From DATKZS01 sp035527835 [NCBI: bacterium] (lineage in GTDB: Bacteria; RBG-13-61-14): 16,883 nt of DNA. The notes below the pieces were generated by a model, which was not told the origin of the DNA, searched no databases, and was given only the letters and a program-made list of their open reading frames with translations. How positions within the stretch are numbered: the first letter of the stretch is position 1; the number at the start of each line of letters is the position of its first letter. Position numbers and translations under genes: made by a program. Below, piece after piece: positions 4,568-15,306 of the stretch. The stretch is taken from NCBI GenBank assembly GCA_035527835.1, contig DATKZS010000153.1:1-16883 (forward strand), in the 5' to 3' direction.

Positions 4568-5941
4568 TTATGGTTTTTCCAGAATGTGAATGCACATGGC
4601 GGCTTCCTCGTTGCCGAGCGCGCCGCCTCCGTTCTCGGCCAGGGCGATCCTCGCTCCCTCCACCTGGCGCTTGCCGGCCTGGCCCCGGAGCTGGGCCACG
4701 AGCTCGAAAATCTGGGCCAATCCGGAGGCCCCGATGGGATGGCCCCTGGAGATGAGGCCGCCGGAGGTATTGACCGGGAGCTTGCCGCCGATCCTGGTAT
4801 CTCCGTCCTCCGCGCGCACTCCGCCCTCGCCCTCCTTGAAGAACCCGAGCGCCTCGGTCTGGTGCAGCTCTCCGAAGGCGGTGGCGTCGTGGACCTCGGC
4901 CAGGTTCACGTCGCCCGGTCCCAGGCCCGCCGTTTCATAGGCGATCCTGCCCGCCCGCAGGGCGATGTCGGGTTCGTCAACGCCGCGCGCCATGCCGGAT
5001 GCCAGCACCGAGGCTCGCACCTTGACCGCGCGGGACCGCGCCCCGAGCCGATCCACCACCTCGGCCGAGGCCAGGATGGCCGACGCCGCGCCATCGCCGA
5101 TGGGAGCGCACATGGCCCGCGTCAGCGGATAACTCACCAGCCTGTCCCTCAAAACGTCCTCGATCGAAACGTCGAAGGTGTACTGCGCGTTCTCGTTCAT
5201 GGTCGAGTGCCAGTGGTTCTTGGCGGCGATGGCCGCGAGCTGGCGCTGGGTGCTGCCGAACCTATTCATGTGCATCCGGGCCGCGTAGCCGTACACGTCC
5301 ATGAAGGGCGAGTGGTCGCCGCCCGTGATCCCGGCCTTCCTGATCTGGTCGTAGCCGATGGTCTCGCCGAGCATGATCCAGACCACGAACATGTCGCGGT
5401 AGTCCCGGAGCCGGTCGCGAATGCTCCTGGCCTTGCGCGTTTTTTTCGCGGCGCTGGCCGCCTCGAGCTGCTCCCGGGGTATCTCGGCCGGGTCCACCTT
5501 GAACTCCTTCAAGCGCTCGGCCTCCTTAGCGATGCACTTGGCGTCCATGCCCCCGATGAAGCCGGCGAACACCGCGTACTTGTTGCGGTCGTAGAGCTTC
5601 TCCGCGCCGATGGCGAGCGATACGTCGAAGAGCCCGGAGGCCACGTCCTTCCAGGCGCCGTGGAAGGCGGTGGACCCGCCGGCGCAGGCGTTCTCGACGT
5701 TGGTGATGGGCACGGCGTCCAGCCCGAACGGCCGCAAGGCCACCTGCCCCCTGATGCAGTGCTGCCATTCGCGCCCGCCCCAGCCCGAGTTCGAGAACCA
5801 CACCGACTGGACGTCCTTTTTCGCAAGGCCCGCGTCCTGAAGCACGCCCTCGGCGGTAATGGCCGCCAGCTCCTTGATGCCCTGGTCAAGGTGCTTGCCG
5901 AACTTGATGGTGTGCGATCCGATCACGTAAACGTCTCTCAT
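4568..5941 (-). CDS. SCP2/SCPx-type thiolase (acetyl-CoA acyltransferase-like)
   Basis: This thiolase-superfamily protein is predicted to cleave a 3-ketoacyl-CoA with CoA. I start it at the ATG at 5939-5941 (457 aa), with GGAG 8 nt upstream; an in-frame ATG eight codons earlier lacks a comparable site. Residues 81-93 read NVENACAGGSTAF, with the nucleophile candidate Cys86. EVHDATAFGELH is at 349-360, and NTSGGLISRGHPIGASG at 391-407 carries His401. This set resembles the sterol-carrier (SCPx) thiolase branch more than FadA. The retained Cys86 argues against an Ltp2-type aldolase. An unusual charged segment at about 131-192 (rich in Lys, Arg and Glu) makes it longer than the roughly 390-400 aa usual for this branch. 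It lies in the acyl-CoA operon between the TetR gene and the dehydrogenases, with a repeat on each side. Confidence 0.88.
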   Translation of the reverse strand: MRDVYVIGSHTIKFGKHLDQGIKELAAITAEGVLQDAGLAKKDVQSVWFSNSGWGGREWQHCIRGQVALRPFGLDAVPITNVENACAGGSTAFHGAWKDVASGLFDVSLAIGAEKLYDRNKYAVFAGFIGGMDAKCIAKEAERLKEFKVDPAEIPREQLEAASAAKKTRKARSIRDRLRDYRDMFVVWIMLGETIGYDQIRKAGITGGDHSPFMDVYGYAARMHMNRFGSTQRQLAAIAAKNHWHSTMNENAQYTFDVSIEDVLRDRLVSYPLTRAMCAPIGDGAASAILASAEVVDRLGARSRAVKVRASVLASGMARGVDEPDIALRAGRIAYETAGLGPGDVNLAEVHDATAFGELHQTEALGFFKEGEGGVRAEDGDTRIGGKLPVNTSGGLISRGHPIGASGLAQIFELVAQLRGQAGKRQVEGARIALAENGGGALGNEEAAMCIHILEKP

Positions 5942-6024
5942 ATCATTCTCCAGCTCAGTATTCAATATTTTTCGGCCCGCGCGGCCGGCGGCCTTGGGTC
6001 TATAACATGCTCAGAGAATCTTAA

Positions 6025-6102
6025 GACAGGATTAACAGGATTAACGGGATGTTCAGAATACGCCTCTTGTTTTTTCATCCTGTAAATCCTGTTAATCCTG
6101 TC
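6025..6102. repeat. Inverted repeat family C, copy 1 (GACAGGATTAACAGGAT type)
   Basis: Arms at 6025-6051 and 6076-6102 (27 nt each) are inverted copies with about two mismatches and a 24-nt loop. The unit is ACAGGATTA, repeated within each arm. It lies between the TetR gene and the thiolase. The outer arm supplies the TAA stop of the TetR gene. A second copy of the family is at 12763-12848. Confidence 0.85.
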
Positions 6103-8393: not shown

Positions 8394-10343
8394 TCAGTTC
8401 CATGACTTTTTGATTATCCTGGCCATTCCCGCGATGAACAGCGGGCACAGCAGGACCAGGGCGGCCATGCAGGCGGTCCCGGGACCGACGCGGCCCGTCA
8501 ACTGGCCGCAGGACAGGGAGCCGCCACCGCCGCTGGACACGGGGACCGCGCCGTTACCGTCGTTGTCGCCACCAGTGTCTCCTCCGTCTCCCGGGACCTC
8601 CGCGATGGGCGTGCCCAGGGCATAAAGGCCCACAACGGGGGTGTTGGCCACCACCAGGTCGGAAACCGGCATGGACTGGTCCGCCACCTCCACCCAGGAT
8701 GAGGACTCGTCATCGAAGCGGTACAACCTGGGCGCGGCCTCGTCTCCCGCGTCCAGCGCCGCGGCCTGGGGCATGAGCTCGAGGGCGATCTGCATATCGT
8801 TTCCCGGCGCCATCCGGGCCTGTCCGCTGGTCAGCTCGATCTTGATAAAATCGCCGGTGCTGTCAAACGGGGCATCCTCCACCAGGTCGGCATAAAGGGC
8901 CGGATCACCCTCCACCAGAATGCCGTATGACGGATCGGTGAGCCCGGCGCCGGGCACGACCAGGTCGGCGGCCAGGCCGAGGCCGAAGTTCAGGCCCACG
9001 CTAAGCTCGGTGTCCGCGCCGCTCTCAGCCTGCTCCACCACCTGCGCTTCGCCCAGGTAGTTCTCGGTCTCCCAGATGTTGACCTCGACTCCCACCAGCT
9101 CCACCAGCAGCACCGTGTCGTTGTAGTCCCAGTCCGCCAGGTCCGCCGGCAGGTCCTCGAAGCCCACGATGTAGCGCAGCGGATCGGTGCGCTCGACCCG
9201 AGCGAACTCGGAATTGGAATAATGATCGTAATCGCCCAGGCCCAGGCTCTCTCCGTGAACGTGGATATGGAACACCAGCTCGTCGGCGGAGATGAAGGGA
9301 GTGGAAACCACCGTGCCCACGTTCTTCAGGCTCTTCTTGATGAGGAGCTGAGAGATCGGCTCATCAATATAAATATCGCTGGAGAGCCCCGCGCTGGCCT
9401 CCAGCAGAGTCACCCGCACCCGCCACTGTCCCTCCGGAATGATGAGCTGGGAGCAGGGATTATCGTCCGGGAAATCCAGCCATTGCGTGGTGGCCATGTC
9501 CCAGCTCGCGCCGAACCGGCCCGTATAGAAATACAGCGTGTTGGTGCAATCGTTATAAATGCTGGCCTGTTCCTCGTTTCCAGTGTTAACCGGCGCGGGA
9601 AGCTTGACCGGGTTCTGCCAGATGCCGTTGAGCTTGGTTGCGCGGTGAATTGCTGACGCGACCCCGTCGCCCCGGCCGCCCCGGCCCAGGAACAGGTACT
9701 TTCCGGTATAGGACAGGCTCGGGCTGTCCTCGTTCATGTCCGAGTGGAAGGGCGCACCCATGTTGACCGCGTTCTGCCACACGCCGTTGACCTTGTGGGA
9801 CATATAAAGATCGCGCTCACCCGCATCCCCGGAAGAAAAGATCAAGGTCTGTCCGTCCACGGAGATGAAGGGAGTGATTTCAATGGTGGTGGTGTTGACG
9901 CCGAGAGGTAGAACCACCGGCTGCTGCCATACTCCATTAATGTTCTCGGACATCCAGATGTCCAGGCCGGTCGCGGCGTCAGTCCCGCCGAAGCCTCCGG
10001 CCCGGCTGGAGTGAAAATACATGTAGCGGCCGTCAAGGGTGAGACTGGGGTGCCCGTCCCGAGCGGTGGGATCGTTGAGCGGCTCGGGAAGGCGTTCCGG
10101 CGTGGTCCACTGGCCGTCCACCAGATGGGTGACGTAGATTTCCAGCTTGTAGAGGTTGAGCCCGCCTTCACGGTCGGAGCTGAAGTACATGGTCTTGCCG
10201 TCGGCGGAGATCCAGGGCTCCACGTCGCGGTAATTCGTGGCCAGGCCCGGGATCAATTCCGGTGTTGACCATTGTTCAGCGTAAATCGCGCCGGGCAGAA
10301 TGAAGCAGAGAACGACCATGACCGCCAGGATTCTGGATTTCAT
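8394..10343 (-). CDS. Secreted PD40 beta-propeller / DUF4114 protein with LSCGQ C-terminal anchor (paralogue 2)
   Basis: I start this 649-aa protein at the ATG at 10341-10343, with AGGAGG 6 nt upstream and a signal peptide following (cleavage probably after IYA, residue 22). An open frame 49 codons longer lacks these. Residues about 40-275 contain five WD40-like/PD40 blades, such as EPWISADGKTMYFSS (42-56) and HPSLTLDGRYMYFHS (98-112). A DUF4114-type segment at 394-410, GFEDLPADLADWDYNDT, resembles acidic Ca-binding loops. After a Gly/Asp-rich linker come LSCGQ (610-614), a hydrophobic helix (about 623-641) and a basic end (RIIKKSWN), which looks like a cell-surface sorting tail. It lies 35 bp downstream of its paralogue and is probably co-transcribed. 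The function is unknown; PD40 propellers usually bind proteins or glycans. No catalytic motif is seen. Confidence 0.9.
   Translation of the reverse strand: MKSRILAVMVVLCFILPGAIYAEQWSTPELIPGLATNYRDVEPWISADGKTMYFSSDREGGLNLYKLEIYVTHLVDGQWTTPERLPEPLNDPTARDGHPSLTLDGRYMYFHSSRAGGFGGTDAATGLDIWMSENINGVWQQPVVLPLGVNTTTIEITPFISVDGQTLIFSSGDAGERDLYMSHKVNGVWQNAVNMGAPFHSDMNEDSPSLSYTGKYLFLGRGGRGDGVASAIHRATKLNGIWQNPVKLPAPVNTGNEEQASIYNDCTNTLYFYTGRFGASWDMATTQWLDFPDDNPCSQLIIPEGQWRVRVTLLEASAGLSSDIYIDEPISQLLIKKSLKNVGTVVSTPFISADELVFHIHVHGESLGLGDYDHYSNSEFARVERTDPLRYIVGFEDLPADLADWDYNDTVLLVELVGVEVNIWETENYLGEAQVVEQAESGADTELSVGLNFGLGLAADLVVPGAGLTDPSYGILVEGDPALYADLVEDAPFDSTGDFIKIELTSGQARMAPGNDMQIALELMPQAAALDAGDEAAPRLYRFDDESSSWVEVADQSMPVSDLVVANTPVVGLYALGTPIAEVPGDGGDTGGDNDGNGAVPVSSGGGGSLSCGQLTGRVGPGTACMAALVLLCPLFIAGMARIIKKSWN
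9028..9140. repeat. Near-identical tract shared with 11025-11137 (copy in paralogue 2)
   Basis: These 113 bp differ from 11025-11137 at only three positions (9033, 9081 and 9090), whereas flanking homologous parts of the two genes differ at many synonymous sites. It encodes about residues 402-439, from the DWDYND motif through WETENYLGEAQVVEQA. Local similarity this high suggests recent gene conversion. Confidence 0.8.
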
Positions 10344-10378
10344 CTCTTCCTCCTTTGATACGAAACGGGCTGATCTTG

Positions 10379-12340
10379 TTATCCGGCCTTCCTGATTAAG
10401 CGGTATACTCCCGCGCCGAGGAGCGGCACGATCAATCCGATCCAGGCGATCAAGGAGCCGAGGCCGGCCGGTCCCGGTATCTGCCCGCAACTCAGTCTTG
10501 CATTGGGGCCGCCGCTGAATGGATTTCCCCTGGCGCCGGGGACGGAATCGTCCTGGCCGTCCTGGTCCCCGGGCGCCTCGGGAATCTCGGGGGGCGCCGG
10601 CTTGGGAATGCCCAGTGCGAACAGGCCCACTGACGGGGTGTCGGCCACGAGTTGTTCATCCGAGACCATGGATTGCAAAGCCACTTCCCGCCACGAGGAT
10701 GACTCAATGTCGAACTGATAGAGCCTGGGCTGGGCCTGCCCGCCCTGGTCCTGGGCCGTGACCTGGGACACGAGGTCGAGGGAGAGCCGGATGGCGTTGC
10801 CGTCCGCCAGCTCCTGCTGGCCGCTGGTGAGCTCGACCTTGACAAAATCGCCGGTGCTGTCGAAAGGCGCGTCTGTCAGCAGCTCTCCATAAAGGGAGGG
10901 GTCGCCTTCCGTGATGATGCCATAGCCGGATTCGTCCAGACCGGCCCCGGGAATCATGGCCACCGCGTCAAGCCCTACTCCCCTGGTGAGCGGCACGCCG
11001 ATCAAGGTGTCCTGCTCCATCGGCGCCTGTTCCACCACCTGCGCTTCGCCCAGGTAGTTCTCGGTCTCCCAGATGTTCACCTCGACCCCCACCAGCTCCA
11101 CCAGCAGCACCGTGTCGTTGTAGTCCCAGTCCGCCAGCTCCGCCGGCAGGTCCTCGAAGCCGATAACGTAACGCAGGGGATCGGTGCGCTCGACCCGCGC
11201 GAACTCGGAGTCGGAATAATGATCGTACTCGCCCAGGTCCCCGCCGTGGACGTGGATATGGAACACCAGCTCGTCCGCGGACAGGAACGGCGTGGAAACC
11301 ACCGTGCCCACGTTCTTCAGGCTTTTCCGGATCAACAGTTGCGAGATGGGCTCGTCAATGTAAATGTCGCTCATGAGTCCGGCGCTGGCTTCGAGCAGGG
11401 TGACCCTGACGCGCCACTGTCCCTCCGGGATGATGAGCTGGGAGCAGGGATTATCATCGGGAATGTCCAGCCATTGCGTGGTGGCGATGTCCCAGGAGCC
11501 GGCCGGGCTGCACATGTTATAGAAGTAGAGGGTGTCGGTGCAGTCGTTGAAGATGCTGGATTCCGTTCCGCTCCAGCAGTGGTTCACGGTGCTGGGCAGC
11601 TTGACCGGCGCTTGCCAGGCGCCGTCTACCTTGACGGAGCGATAAATGTTGCTGAGGTCGGAAAAGAAGAAGTACTTGCCGGTATAAGACACGCTGGGAT
11701 GGACCTGGGCCTTGCTGCTGTTGATGACCGGCCCCATGTTCTCGGCCTGTTGCCATACCCCGTCCACCTTGCGGGAAATGTAGAGGTCATAGTTTCCGTA
11801 TCCGCCCGGCCTCTTGCTGGAGAAGAGCAGGGTCTGGCCGTCCACGGAAATCTGGGGCGCGTAATCCGAGGAGGTGGTATTGATGTTGGGGCCCAGGTTC
11901 ACGGGCTGCTGCCATTGCCCGTTGATGTTCTCGGACATCCAGATGTCGGCGTCGGTATCGGAGGTGCGCTTGCCCGAGTTGTAGTCGCTCGGGCGGTTGG
12001 AATGGAAATACATATAGCGGCCGTCAAGCGTGAGGCTGGGGTGTCCGTCACGGCCCAGCGGATCGTTGAGCGGCTCGGGCAGACGCTCCGGAGCGGACCA
12101 AACGCCGTCCACCAGGTGCGAGACGAAAAGTTCCAGCCCGCATTTGCCGCAAGGGCCACCGGGGAAACGGTCCGAGCTGAAATATAGAGTCTTGCCGTCC
12201 GCCGAGATCCAGGGCTCAAGGTCACGGGCACTTGAATTTAGCTCGCTGATGTAACTCGGGGATGACCATTGTTCAGCATGGAGGGTAATGGGCAGAATGA
12301 GGATGAACCCGATTATGGCCGCTAAGATTCTTGATTTCAT
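10379..12340 (-). CDS. Secreted PD40 beta-propeller / DUF4114 protein with LSCGQ C-terminal anchor (paralogue 1)
   Basis: This 653-aa exported protein has the same architecture as its downstream neighbour. It starts at the ATG at 12338-12340 with GGAGGAG upstream and has a signal peptide with likely cleavage after LHA (residue 22). Five PD40-like blades lie between about 40 and 275 (EPWISADGKTLYFSS at 42-56, YAPQISVDGQTLLFSS at 160-175). The region 296-440 is almost identical to the paralogue and includes GFEDLPAELADWDYNDT at 394-410. The tail is LSCGQ (616-620), a hydrophobic helix (about 629-646) and RLIRKAG. Extra Cys pairs in the propeller (Cys64/Cys67, Cys255, Cys267, Cys277) could form disulfides outside the cytoplasm. 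It is the first gene of a two-gene operon. A surface-binding or adhesive role is an inference; no enzymatic motif is visible. Confidence 0.9.
   Translation of the reverse strand: MKSRILAAIIGFILILPITLHAEQWSSPSYISELNSSARDLEPWISADGKTLYFSSDRFPGGPCGKCGLELFVSHLVDGVWSAPERLPEPLNDPLGRDGHPSLTLDGRYMYFHSNRPSDYNSGKRTSDTDADIWMSENINGQWQQPVNLGPNINTTSSDYAPQISVDGQTLLFSSKRPGGYGNYDLYISRKVDGVWQQAENMGPVINSSKAQVHPSVSYTGKYFFFSDLSNIYRSVKVDGAWQAPVKLPSTVNHCWSGTESSIFNDCTDTLYFYNMCSPAGSWDIATTQWLDIPDDNPCSQLIIPEGQWRVRVTLLEASAGLMSDIYIDEPISQLLIRKSLKNVGTVVSTPFLSADELVFHIHVHGGDLGEYDHYSDSEFARVERTDPLRYVIGFEDLPAELADWDYNDTVLLVELVGVEVNIWETENYLGEAQVVEQAPMEQDTLIGVPLTRGVGLDAVAMIPGAGLDESGYGIITEGDPSLYGELLTDAPFDSTGDFVKVELTSGQQELADGNAIRLSLDLVSQVTAQDQGGQAQPRLYQFDIESSSWREVALQSMVSDEQLVADTPSVGLFALGIPKPAPPEIPEAPGDQDGQDDSVPGARGNPFSGGPNARLSCGQIPGPAGLGSLIAWIGLIVPLLGAGVYRLIRKAG
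11025..11137. repeat. Near-identical tract shared with 9028-9140 (copy in paralogue 1)
   Basis: Partner of the 113-bp tract in the downstream paralogue, with 3 mismatches in 113 positions. The two copies are about 2.0 kb apart in direct orientation, so they are also a possible substrate for recombination that would fuse the two genes. Confidence 0.8.
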
Positions 12341-12762: not shown

Positions 12763-12848
12763 ATTTTTTGACAGGATTAACAGGATGGAAGAAGATCGGT
12801 TTACACTTTCCGAGAATCCTGTAAATCCTGTTAATCCTGTCAAAAAAT
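12763..12848. repeat. Inverted repeat family C, copy 2, perfect 24-bp arms
   Basis: Arms at 12763-12786 and 12825-12848 are perfect inverted copies (ATTTTTTGACAGGATTAACA and on through GGAT), with a 38-nt loop carrying one extra ATCCTGTA unit on the right. It shares its core with 6025-6102. In RNA it would form a stable 24-bp stem downstream of the GH15-like gene. The A/T runs are inside the stem, so it is not a classic terminator. Confidence 0.85.
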
Positions 12849-12915: not shown

Positions 12916-15306
12916 CTACGGCGCCGGCGGCTGCATGGGCGCGAACAGCCCGGGCTCGTAAACGGCCAGCGCGGAAAGGTAGACCGTGGCGCCGTTCCAC
13001 AAATGCGGGATGCTGGTGCGCTGCTGAGCGACTTTCTGGCCGGTTCCCGCGAAATCTCCCCATAGCGTGACCTCGCCGTAGCAGTCGGTGCCGGGGAACG
13101 CGACCTCGCTGGTGAGGACCGTGAGCGCCTCATGGAGCAGGTCCGTGTACTCGTGGTCCTTGTCGGCCAGCGCCAGGATGAAAATCTCCTCGCCGAGATA
13201 CGCGAAGCCCGGCCGCTTTTTGTCAATCTTCTCGCGGATGCTTTGAGCGATGCGCTCCTTGATGGCGCGGGCGCCCGGCTCGCGGTAGTGGGTAAATGCG
13301 GGCGCGGGCCACAGGGTCCAGGCCAGGCCGCGGAACCCGGCCATGTCCAGGGTTTCCGGGAACGCGGACCGCGCCCGGACGCCGTCGCGCAGCGACCGCG
13401 CGGCCTCGCACCACCGGGCGGTCTTCTCCCGGGCAAAGCCCCACCGCGGCCCGGCGTCGCAGGCCGCGGCCAGGCCGGCCAGCACCGACGACGCGCCGTG
13501 GAGCGTGGCCTCCGGCGGGAAATTGTCGTCCTCCAATGCCGGCTTGACCCAGCCATTCTTCACGTCGGTAAAGCGCACCAGCGCGTCCGCCGCCCGCTCG
13601 AACGTGTCCTTCATCCGGGCGATGTACGCCGGCCGCTCGGACCCGGGCAGTACCCGCTCGTGGCGCCAGAAGTCCCAGACCGGCAGGCCGGTCTCGTCAA
13701 TCTCGAAGGGCATGACGCTGGGCATGGAGCCGTGAGTGCCGTCGGGCGACATATTGGACGGCCAGTGGCCGGAGGGGTCGTAGAAGCCGGAGCGGAAGTT
13801 GAACACGAACACGGGGCCATAGGCCAGTTTCTTGGTGAACTGGGTGCGGGTGTAAAAGTCGTGGTGGCGGGTCACGCGGTCCGGGAAGCCGGCGAGGTCG
13901 AGGGTGAGGTCGAAGAAGGCCCCGTCGCGGGTCCAGTCAAAGTGATAGTGCGGCTGGCGCGACAAAGATGCCACGATCTCGCCGCTCTCCTGGTCCTGGG
14001 CCTGGATGAGATTGAGCACGGAGCGCCGGGCCACGCGGGAGGTGACAGGGTCGGCCGCGGCCGGGAGATGGATTTGCTTGGAGACTTCACGCCAATGAGT
14101 GACCGCCCGCTCCCGGAGCGCGTCCACCCCGGCGTTGCGCGCCGTTCGTATCATGTCCACGGCCTTTTCCGCGCTGTCGCTCACCGCGATCAGCACCGAC
14201 AGATCATTTTCCCGGCCGCTCTTCAGGTCGTGGGACATGATGGAGTTGGCCTTGCCGAAAAAAAGGTGGTTCCCAGTTAGCTCCTCCACCGGTGCTCCGA
14301 AGCGGCAGAGAGAAGATTTCTTGTTAGTACACCCGTCTTCCTCCACCTGATAACCATCCACTTGACCGTTGAACCCCCACGCCACGAACACTCCGCCTTC
14401 CGGATACGCGGCGTCGAGGTCCGAGGCGCTGATGGGCAGGCCGGAGAGCTTCTCGAGCCGCGCCTTGTCCTTGACCTTGGGCTGGAAATGGATCATGACC
14501 TTATCCGGCTCGAAAAAAAGAGCGGCAAAACCAGCTTCCTTGGGGTCGCTCTTCGTGTATTCTCCGGGCTTGGCCATGAAGGGCGCGAAGGTGGCGTGAT
14601 AGAAAAAGCGCGTGGCCTGGCCCGAGACCTGATAGGACCGGACCATCAGGTCGCGGTCGGGATCAATCCAGTCACTCACCGCGACCTTGACCTCCGGCCT
14701 CACAAGCTCGGTCCGCAGCACCGTCGAGTCCTCGGGCTCGAAGCTCCGGGACGAGGTCCAGGAAGGGTCGCCCATCCACACCAGTTGCGCAGGCGAGATC
14801 TGCACGCCTCCCCTTGAGCCCAGGCCCTGGCACCCTTCGACCGGCCGGCCGTAGCGCCGCCAGTCCGGGCCCGCGCAGTCGCGGTTACAGCGCACCGGCG
14901 CCTGGTGCGGCGCGAAGATGTTGTTGGCCACCGTGAAATAACGGAGCTGATCCGAGTACGAGGGATTGGGCCAGCGGAAAACCACCAGCTCGCCCCACGG
15001 CGAGATCTCCACCGAGAGCCTCCCGTTGCCGAGCGCGGTCGCGTAATTCGAGGCCCCGCTCTGCGACTCCGAGGCCAGGTCGGAAGCGAACAGGATGTCG
15101 CCGCCCGCTTCCTCGATGGAATTTTTAGTCAGGTTCAGCTTGACCGCGTCGGCCAGCTTCCTGACGCCCGGGATCATGGGGGCCTTGATGGGCTTGTAGT
15201 CCCGGTCCTGCCCGGAGGCGGCTCCGGCCATGAATATAACGCCGATCAATGCCGCGGCGGCAAGGAGCCGGAACGAATAGGCCCGCGCTTTTTTATCAGG
15301 TTCCAT
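12916..15306 (-). CDS. Secreted GH15-like (glucoamylase-fold) glycoside hydrolase
   Basis: This 796-aa protein has an N-terminal signal segment (hydrophobic about 13-30, cleavage near residue 32) and is predicted to be exported. The N-terminal 400 residues look like the beta-sandwich domain of bacterial GH15 enzymes. From about 420 the (alpha/alpha)6 part contains HFDWTRDGAFF (455-465, like the W-x-RD substrate loop of glucoamylases), FEIDETGLPVWDFW (534-547), PALEDDNFPPEATLHG (589-604) and IPHLWNGATVYLSAL (766-780). Glu592 is a candidate general acid and Glu745 (CYGEVTLW) a candidate base, but I cannot align them firmly. The usual reaction is release of glucose or a related sugar from alpha-glucans; the substrate here is unknown. 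The ATG at 15304-15306 has GGAGGG 6 nt upstream. Cys140/Cys144/Cys159 and Cys326/Cys334 may form disulfides. No C-terminal anchor is present. Confidence 0.85.
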   Translation of the reverse strand: MEPDKKARAYSFRLLAAAALIGVIFMAGAASGQDRDYKPIKAPMIPGVRKLADAVKLNLTKNSIEEAGGDILFASDLASESQSGASNYATALGNGRLSVEISPWGELVVFRWPNPSYSDQLRYFTVANNIFAPHQAPVRCNRDCAGPDWRRYGRPVEGCQGLGSRGGVQISPAQLVWMGDPSWTSSRSFEPEDSTVLRTELVRPEVKVAVSDWIDPDRDLMVRSYQVSGQATRFFYHATFAPFMAKPGEYTKSDPKEAGFAALFFEPDKVMIHFQPKVKDKARLEKLSGLPISASDLDAAYPEGGVFVAWGFNGQVDGYQVEEDGCTNKKSSLCRFGAPVEELTGNHLFFGKANSIMSHDLKSGRENDLSVLIAVSDSAEKAVDMIRTARNAGVDALRERAVTHWREVSKQIHLPAAADPVTSRVARRSVLNLIQAQDQESGEIVASLSRQPHYHFDWTRDGAFFDLTLDLAGFPDRVTRHHDFYTRTQFTKKLAYGPVFVFNFRSGFYDPSGHWPSNMSPDGTHGSMPSVMPFEIDETGLPVWDFWRHERVLPGSERPAYIARMKDTFERAADALVRFTDVKNGWVKPALEDDNFPPEATLHGASSVLAGLAAACDAGPRWGFAREKTARWCEAARSLRDGVRARSAFPETLDMAGFRGLAWTLWPAPAFTHYREPGARAIKERIAQSIREKIDKKRPGFAYLGEEIFILALADKDHEYTDLLHEALTVLTSEVAFPGTDCYGEVTLWGDFAGTGQKVAQQRTSIPHLWNGATVYLSALAVYEPGLFAPMQPPAP

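Follow-up and report, generated by a model that had tools for sequence, protein, structure and literature searches.

A probable divergent myxosortase-type C-terminal sorting signal in exported proteins of a candidate bacterial phylum

Surface proteins bearing the MYXO-CTERM tail (TIGR03901, TIGR03382) in Myxococcus xanthus combine a signal peptide with a C-terminal Cys, a hydrophobic helix and a basic end, as described in PMC11980579. The same source reports for the MrtX/TraA pair that cleavage depends on the Cys as well as on the protease and can be reproduced in Escherichia coli, gives EExxxR and HxxxN as the motifs of MrtX, counts dozens of MYXO-CTERM substrates per Myxococcota genome, treats the lipidation step as hypothetical even in Myxococcus, and presents the related JDVT-CTERM tail and its enzyme as a two-gene neighbourhood. 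Here we analyse a stretch of 16,883 nucleotides (hereafter the window; contig DATKZS010000153.1 of assembly GCA_035527835.1, bacterium DATKZS01 sp035527835) that encodes two tandem exported proteins, P0001 and P0002, both ending in a tail of this layout. We consider it likely that these tails are a divergent myxosortase-type, MYXO-CTERM-like sorting signal used in a candidate phylum, and that the tags of the window proteins are probably cut off and the proteins then fixed to the cell surface. A candidate phylum RBG-13-61-14 is named in PMC13170169; we infer its identity with the phylum of the sister genome G001 from the name of that metagenome-assembled genome (MAG).

The comparison was based on three draft sister genomes, G001 (MAG Deltaproteobacteria RBG_13_61_14), G002 and G003, the only three genomes of the class and phylum of G001 in the collection searched. 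The thiolase of the window (4568-5965) is 75% identical to its counterpart in G001 and 69% identical to those in G002 and G003, and six other window proteins gave matches of 25-50% or none when compared with a minority of the sister genomes' sequence. The window probably comes from the same phylum-level lineage as these genomes. A genome scan that started from two peptide patterns, and could not detect relatives lacking them, returned six relatives of the window protein, of which only the one in G001 is close (67% in the best segment); no whole-protein relative was found in viral contigs. This G001 ortholog (L007) ends in GPGCLSVAAASDPAGW, a helix and RLIKRRPR; it retains the signal peptide, the Cys, the helix and the basic end but lacks SCGQ, with G-C instead of S-C. 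Searched with TIGR03901, the three genomes yielded 22 matches (E up to 10), among which one (in G003) exceeded the cut-off, two more were recognized as tails on inspection (one each in G001 and G003) and the others were not tail-like, while a property scan over ∼1.1 Mb added one further G001 tail. A model of seven tails (A4) then retrieved four new ones from the three genomes with 30.1, 27.2, 20.8 and 16.9 bits (E 0.049 for the weakest), together with L138 (E 0.53), which was accepted on its anatomy; a model of 12 tails (A5) added another three (E 0.037, 0.16 and 0.81), again on anatomical grounds. The set comprises 15 tails, of which G001 contributes six, G003 four, G002 three and the window two. 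In leave-family-out models, 10 of the 15 rank first among 3,706 sequences. A possible sixteenth tail, on a 1440-residue G001 protein (L058, 7322-11641, minus strand) with a Cys, a charged spacer, a helix containing PLL and an Arg at Pro+8, was excluded from the tail counts and served among the controls of that ranking.

The sole invariant column across the 15 tails is the Cys, the residue that a first-pass annotation of the window had proposed as the key one, although this invariance is partly by construction because most tails came from models or scans that require a Cys. The residue before it is Gly in eight tails, Ser in six (each after Leu or Ile) and Asp in one. The helix carries a Pro followed by Leu or Val in 14 of the 15 tails, and a Lys or Arg stands at exactly Pro+8 in 13 (in L138 this residue is Gln, L007 is without a helix Pro, and L183 carries an extra Arg already at +4). 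Control helices were judged by a different rule, a Pro eight residues ahead of the first charged or polar residue that follows the called helix. Under this rule 11 of the 15 tails conform (L183 and L007 do not, and the helices of L129 and L131 are missed because the 15-residue scanning span does not fit them), compared with none of 37 C-terminal helices without an upstream Cys from the same DNA; these controls are open reading frames (ORFs), many of them multi-span membrane proteins and not all certain genes. Three of the 37 contain Pro-Leu, Pro-Val or Pro-Ile at any position. Among the seven tails found by homology, by the NCBI model or by the property scan, six fit the Pro rule (Fisher p ∼1e-6, equal under both rules); the true significance is lower because the two window tails come from paralogs and L036 is a homolog of L101, and TIGR03901 itself may favour Pro. 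As predicted from these sequences, the signal of the lineage is a Cys, a distance of 16-25 residues to the helix Pro, and a Lys or Arg at Pro+8. A count of Cys in single-anchor proteins (17 of 22 with a Cys, compared with 3 of 27 proteins with more hydrophobic segments) was set aside because several of the ORFs are not trusted and P0001, L007, L129 and L131 were missed by the filter.

The 15 tail proteins fall into nine cargo groups with no match between groups (blastp, E 1e-3, last 60 residues removed), in line with the sorting signal of CTERM layout that the first-pass annotation had put forward from the window pair. Four groups have several members (the window pair with L007; L036 with L101; L129, L131 and L133; L179 with L185) and five are singletons (L030, L031, L126, L138 and L183). 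Among the 13 sister-genome proteins, Pfam identifies an M10 matrixin domain in L036 and L101, a papain C1 domain with a lectin-like domain in L030, CBM96 in L126, MopE-type metal binding in L138, PD40 repeats in L183 and L007, and, slightly below the cut-off, a TSP3 repeat in L031; L129, L131, L133, L179 and L185 gave no Pfam match. The papain-type L030 of G003 and the CBM96 protein L126 of G002 share near-identical tails (RFGCM.T.G.MDSG.IGS) on unrelated cargo, which from the sequences is module-like behaviour. The two had first been judged orthologs from their tails, a candidate relationship that was rejected since no blastp match remains without the tails. Conversely, one orthologous group retains the Cys and the helix while the neighbouring residues vary (GLSCGL, GNISCSV and GGYDCFG). 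L129, L131 and L133 are homologous exported proteins of ∼620-660 residues, one per sister genome, each with the tail present.

The first-pass annotation had also anticipated a CPBP-type, myxosortase-like protease, and a candidate gene was found in two of the three sister genomes. All eight CPBP proteins of G001-G003 (PF02517) were scanned with NCBIfam. One protein in G001 (C17, 124.5 and 127.4 bits in two scans) and one in G003 (C15, 123.4 and 126.5 bits) exceed the cut-off of 100 for the myxosortase core model NF040914, which no protein passed in any of 14 control genomes. The two are 39% identical, both contain EExxxR and HxxxN, and a UvrD helicase gene lies directly upstream of each on the same strand (gene pairs at L150, 8793-12082, and L151, 2486-5724). 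Neither passed the specific models MrtP, MrtC, MrtX, MrtS, MrtZ or MrtJ. The other six CPBP proteins are below the cut-offs, the best being a G001 protein with 64.3 bits for the core model.

The likeness to the MYXO-CTERM/MrtX system covers both partners, with a CPBP protease carrying the two MrtX motifs in G001 and G003. However, several differences are evident. The window tails have S-C instead of G-C, the lineage tails have a Pro eight residues before the basic end (a feature that MYXO-CTERM may also have), the sister-genome proteases score 117.7 and 123.1 bits against the MrtX cut-off of 180, and the host is a candidate phylum rather than Myxococcota. The first-pass annotation had expected many proteins of the genome to share the tail; six, three and four tails were seen in G001, G002 and G003 (drafts, tail-model scans), compared with the dozens of substrates reported for Myxococcota. 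No NCBIfam CTERM model matches the window tails, and MYXO-CTERM gives none at E up to 10, in agreement with the first-pass annotation, which assigned LSCGQ, the pentapeptide around the Cys in both window proteins, to no named class. A match to an already named CTERM model was to have counted against a new signal, and one is seen for L030 only, the sole lineage tail of the 15 over the MYXO-CTERM model TIGR03901 (21.1 versus 20 bits). JDVT-CTERM and MrtJ (NF033191, NF033192) similarly pair a Cys signal with a myxosortase-family protease, but the sister-genome proteases reach 65.7 and 57.9 bits against a cut-off of 75, no lineage tail exceeds the JDVT cut-off and, unlike the JDVT pairs, no tail gene was seen directly beside the protease among the listed ORFs of G001 and G003. 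Synerg-CTERM and MrtS (TIGR04564, NF040589) combine, by their NCBIfam names, a sorting tag with a glutamic intramembrane protease; here the proteases score 75.1 and 75.9 against 130, and no lineage tail is over the Synerg-CTERM cut-off.

By analogy with MrtX and TraA, the CPBP protease is expected to act on the lipidated tail and to cut it at the Cys. In such a pathway, Sec would export the propeller protein, and the C-terminal helix and basic end would halt in the inner membrane, with the Cys remaining on its periplasmic side. The Cys side chain would probably then be lipidated, after which the CPBP-family intramembrane glutamic protease (myxosortase) would cut adjacent to the Cys and release the helix. 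The lipidated protein would finally be delivered to the cell surface, with type II secretion as an uncertain route. Cleavage, lipidation and surface location are thus predictions from sequence. If they hold, Cys-based, protease-processed surface sorting would extend to a candidate phylum seen here in drafts only, with a compact substrate set, a predicted enzyme and a simple substrate feature in the helix, the Pro with a basic residue at +8.

Several observations weigh against a myxosortase-type signal. Five of the tails accepted on anatomy have weak E-values (L133, 0.049; L138, 0.53; L179, 0.037; L183, 0.16; L185, 0.81), and five are not first in the leave-family-out test: L185 is second, L036 sixth, L126 eleventh and L101 thirteenth, and L007, which lacks the helix Pro, is 3251st of 3706. 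The main exception is G002, which has three tails and no CPBP protein over the core cut-off (20.8-23.6 bits). It also has no ortholog of the protease-neighbour helicase (best match 32% over part), and the absence of the helicase from this draft as well suggests an assembly gap without proving one. The protease has been seen in sister genomes only, and its presence in the window organism's own genome is inferred. In G003 a second, more distant myxosortase-like CPBP protein (L078, 1450-2535, minus strand), nearest to the archaeomyxosortase MrtA at 70 bits against a cut-off of 200, could also be the one that acts. As for the proposed route, the type II secretion protein GspD (TIGR02517) is over the cut-off in G001 only, with a partial match of 241.8 bits in G002 and at most 56.7 bits in G003.

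A more ambitious interpretation, which we entertain only tentatively, is that the tails form a distinct Cys sorting class, marked by a helix Pro at a fixed distance of eight residues ahead of the basic end and served by its own myxosortase lineage beside the UvrD helicase gene, in phylum RBG-13-61-14 and perhaps in further lineages. In that case the helix Pro could form a kink or hinge through which the bond adjoining the Cys is offered to the glutamic protease. The suggestion of further lineages comes from a search with the 15-tail model in 386 genomes that had been gathered as relatives of G001. In most of these no more than 18 candidates were scored, and 185 genomes gave one or more matches (E up to 0.5). 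Inspection of 27 returned loci and of 20 stretches around further matches revealed 27 Cys-helix-basic tails (L247-L293) in 17 genomes, one of them doubtful (L264), and none in the others. NCBIfam models were applied to 20 of these tails, and five passed a MYXO-CTERM cut-off (TIGR03901 at 20.2, 20.5, 26.8 and 24.4 bits; TIGR03382 at 19.1). That a model built from this lineage retrieves recognized MYXO-CTERM tails elsewhere supports one broad kind of signal, and the 15 scanned tails below the cut-offs are possible uncatalogued myxosortase substrates. A Pro is present in 18 of the 27 outside tails, exactly eight residues before a basic residue in seven by script and nine by eye, which is not independent evidence because the 15-tail model favours Pro.

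Alternatively, the tail could be an ordinary C-terminal membrane anchor in which the Cys plays no part and no cleavage takes place. A final hydrophobic stretch with a basic end would keep any exported protein in the membrane, the agreement between the two window tails is explained by paralogy, and the invariance of the Cys owes something to how the tails were collected. We nevertheless regard this as unlikely, since Cys-helix-basic tails occur on nine unrelated cargo groups, since the Pro lies eight residues before the basic end in 11-13 of the 15 tails and in none of the controls, a contrast that six of the seven tails found without our own models also display, and since a protease of the myxosortase core type is encoded in two of the three sister genomes.

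It has also to be considered whether LSCGQ marks a sorting class apart from the myxosortase systems, with an enzyme of its own. The first-pass annotation had noted the identical LSCGQ with its helix and basic end in both tandem proteins, with differing linkers and helices around it, and this observation is confirmed, the two Cys positions matching exactly. The whole tails are 44% identical, with 11 of 31 aligned residues conserved in the linker, five of five in LSCGQ, three of 10 in the spacer and nine of 23 in the helix and end. Furthermore, the Ser codon is TCC in P0001 and AGT in P0002, so the Ser of LSCGQ survived a codon-family switch. The match within the window pair alone is weak evidence because the paralogs are 65% identical and their tails 44%. 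A model of 12 sister-genome tails, with the homologous G001 tail excluded, puts each of the two window tails at the top of 3,706 scored sequences, with weak E-values (0.06 and 0.094); when the homolog L007 is included, the resulting 13-tail model ranks P0002 first (E 0.0004) and P0001 third (E 0.17). The contrast between regions, the Ser codon and these ranks strengthen the case, weak for the pair alone, that the shared tail is more than chance.

The retained Ser, the lack of an NCBIfam match for the window tails and the recurrence of LSCG and ISC on tails of other proteins in G003 and G002 would all suit a separate LSCGQ class. Against it, the G001 ortholog has G-C, G-C and S-C tails of like helix signature coexist in G002 and G003, two sister genomes encode the myxosortase-core protease, and in the sister-genome sequence scanned SCGQ is not shared by several unrelated proteins, so that we hold a separate class to be very unlikely. 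No SCGQ tail was found outside the two window paralogs in ∼1.7 Mb of the 4.7 Mb of G001, small parts of G002 and G003, and small loci. A two-row SCGQ tail model gave four weak matches in the three whole phylum genomes (best E 0.43), in which the property scan flagged no tail (the loci were not viewed singly), and a literature search found no SCGQ in the context of C-terminal sorting. The papers that a search for LSCGQ returned are on antimicrobial peptides, coagulation factor XII, tomato and plant lipid-transfer allergens. The pentapeptide was therefore rejected as the core motif: SCGQ is present in two of the 15 tails, those of the window, and LSCGQ is, on the sequences, a local version around a Cys that is usually preceded by Gly or Ser. 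A motif shared by paralogs had mimicked a core, and the wider comparison alone placed the signal in the Cys and the helix. The interpretation of the first-pass annotation is thus partly supported. It had named the lack of further such proteins as a refuting case, and in a modified form the relatives speak against that refutation: they have Cys-helix-basic tails without SCGQ on other proteins and, in two of three genomes, the protease.

Processing by an exosortase or rhombosortase, as for PEP-CTERM or GlyGly-CTERM tails, is hardly credible despite the similar tripartite layout, a PEP-CTERM tail on a related DUF4114-type protein of an Omnitrophota MAG and one outside tail (L284) that passes the cut-offs of both MYXO-CTERM and GlyGly-CTERM, since none of the 15 lineage tails exceeds a PEP or GlyGly model cut-off (enzyme genes were not searched for) and a conserved Cys is not known to be part of these signals. 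The Omnitrophota protein (L006, 5481-6173) scores 21.4 bits against the PEP-CTERM cut-off of 16, and a second DUF4114-type relative, in an Elusimicrobia MAG (L002, 5214-9377), has a T9SS type A tail (39.8 versus 23). These signals and their enzymes differ from those described here and are absent from the window proteins, and the other three distant relatives (L003-L005) show no such C-terminal tail by eye. Cargo of this type therefore appears to be surface-sorted by different machines across phyla.

Features of the two tandem genes in the window.
Feature	Positions	Strand	Description
Exported protein P0002	10379..12340	-	653 residues; signal peptide, PD40 repeats, DUF4114-like domain, Gly/Pro linker, Cys sorting tail (putative)
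Exported protein P0001	8394..10343	-	649 residues from ATG 10343; tandem paralog, architecture as P0002
P0002 signal peptide	12275..12340	-	residues 1-22; read from sequence, predicted cleavage site
P0001 signal peptide	10278..10343	-	residues 1-22; read from sequence, predicted cleavage site
P0002 LSCGQ	10481..10495	-	Cys618, proposed modified residue at cut site (putative role)
P0001 LSCGQ	8502..8516	-	Cys612, proposed modified residue at cut site (putative role)
P0002 hydrophobic helix	10403..10453	-	∼residues 630-646; Pro639, Arg647 exactly Pro+8
P0001 hydrophobic helix	8421..8474	-	∼residues 624-641; Pro634, Arg642 exactly Pro+8
P0002 basic C-terminal end	10382..10402	-	RLIRKAG
P0001 basic C-terminal end	8397..8420	-	RIIKKSWN

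The start of P0001 was placed at an ATG preceded by an AGGAGG site, the mechanical ORF list beginning this protein further upstream, and 35 bases separate the P0002 stop from this ATG. Signal peptides of the window proteins were called by eye and by a scripted hydrophobicity rule, the ends judged by eye being ...LHA/EQW and ...IYA/EQW. Both proteins contain PD40 beta-propeller repeats (Pfam; 1.4e-18 for P0002), while the resemblance to DUF4114 is weak (20.3 bits, under the Pfam cut-off of 27). In each, the tail follows the order Gly/Pro linker, LSCGQ, Gly/Pro spacer, single hydrophobic helix and basic end. Structure prediction for P0002 from a three-row alignment gave a mean predicted local distance difference test score (pLDDT) of 38, too poor for a structure search.

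Elsewhere in the window, a 796-residue protein (12916-15306, minus strand) has no Pfam match at E 0.01 and no relative of known structure (best PDB match at E 0.78). It is conserved but unassigned, with 57% identity over 777 residues to a G001 protein, and from its motifs it is possibly a sugar-active exported enzyme. Short tandem repeats with a 9-base unit occur at three separate intergenic places, 6026-6050, 6077-6101 and 12815-12840, and their units (ACAGGATTA, ATCCTGTAA and AATCCTGTA, respectively) are rotations or complements of each other.

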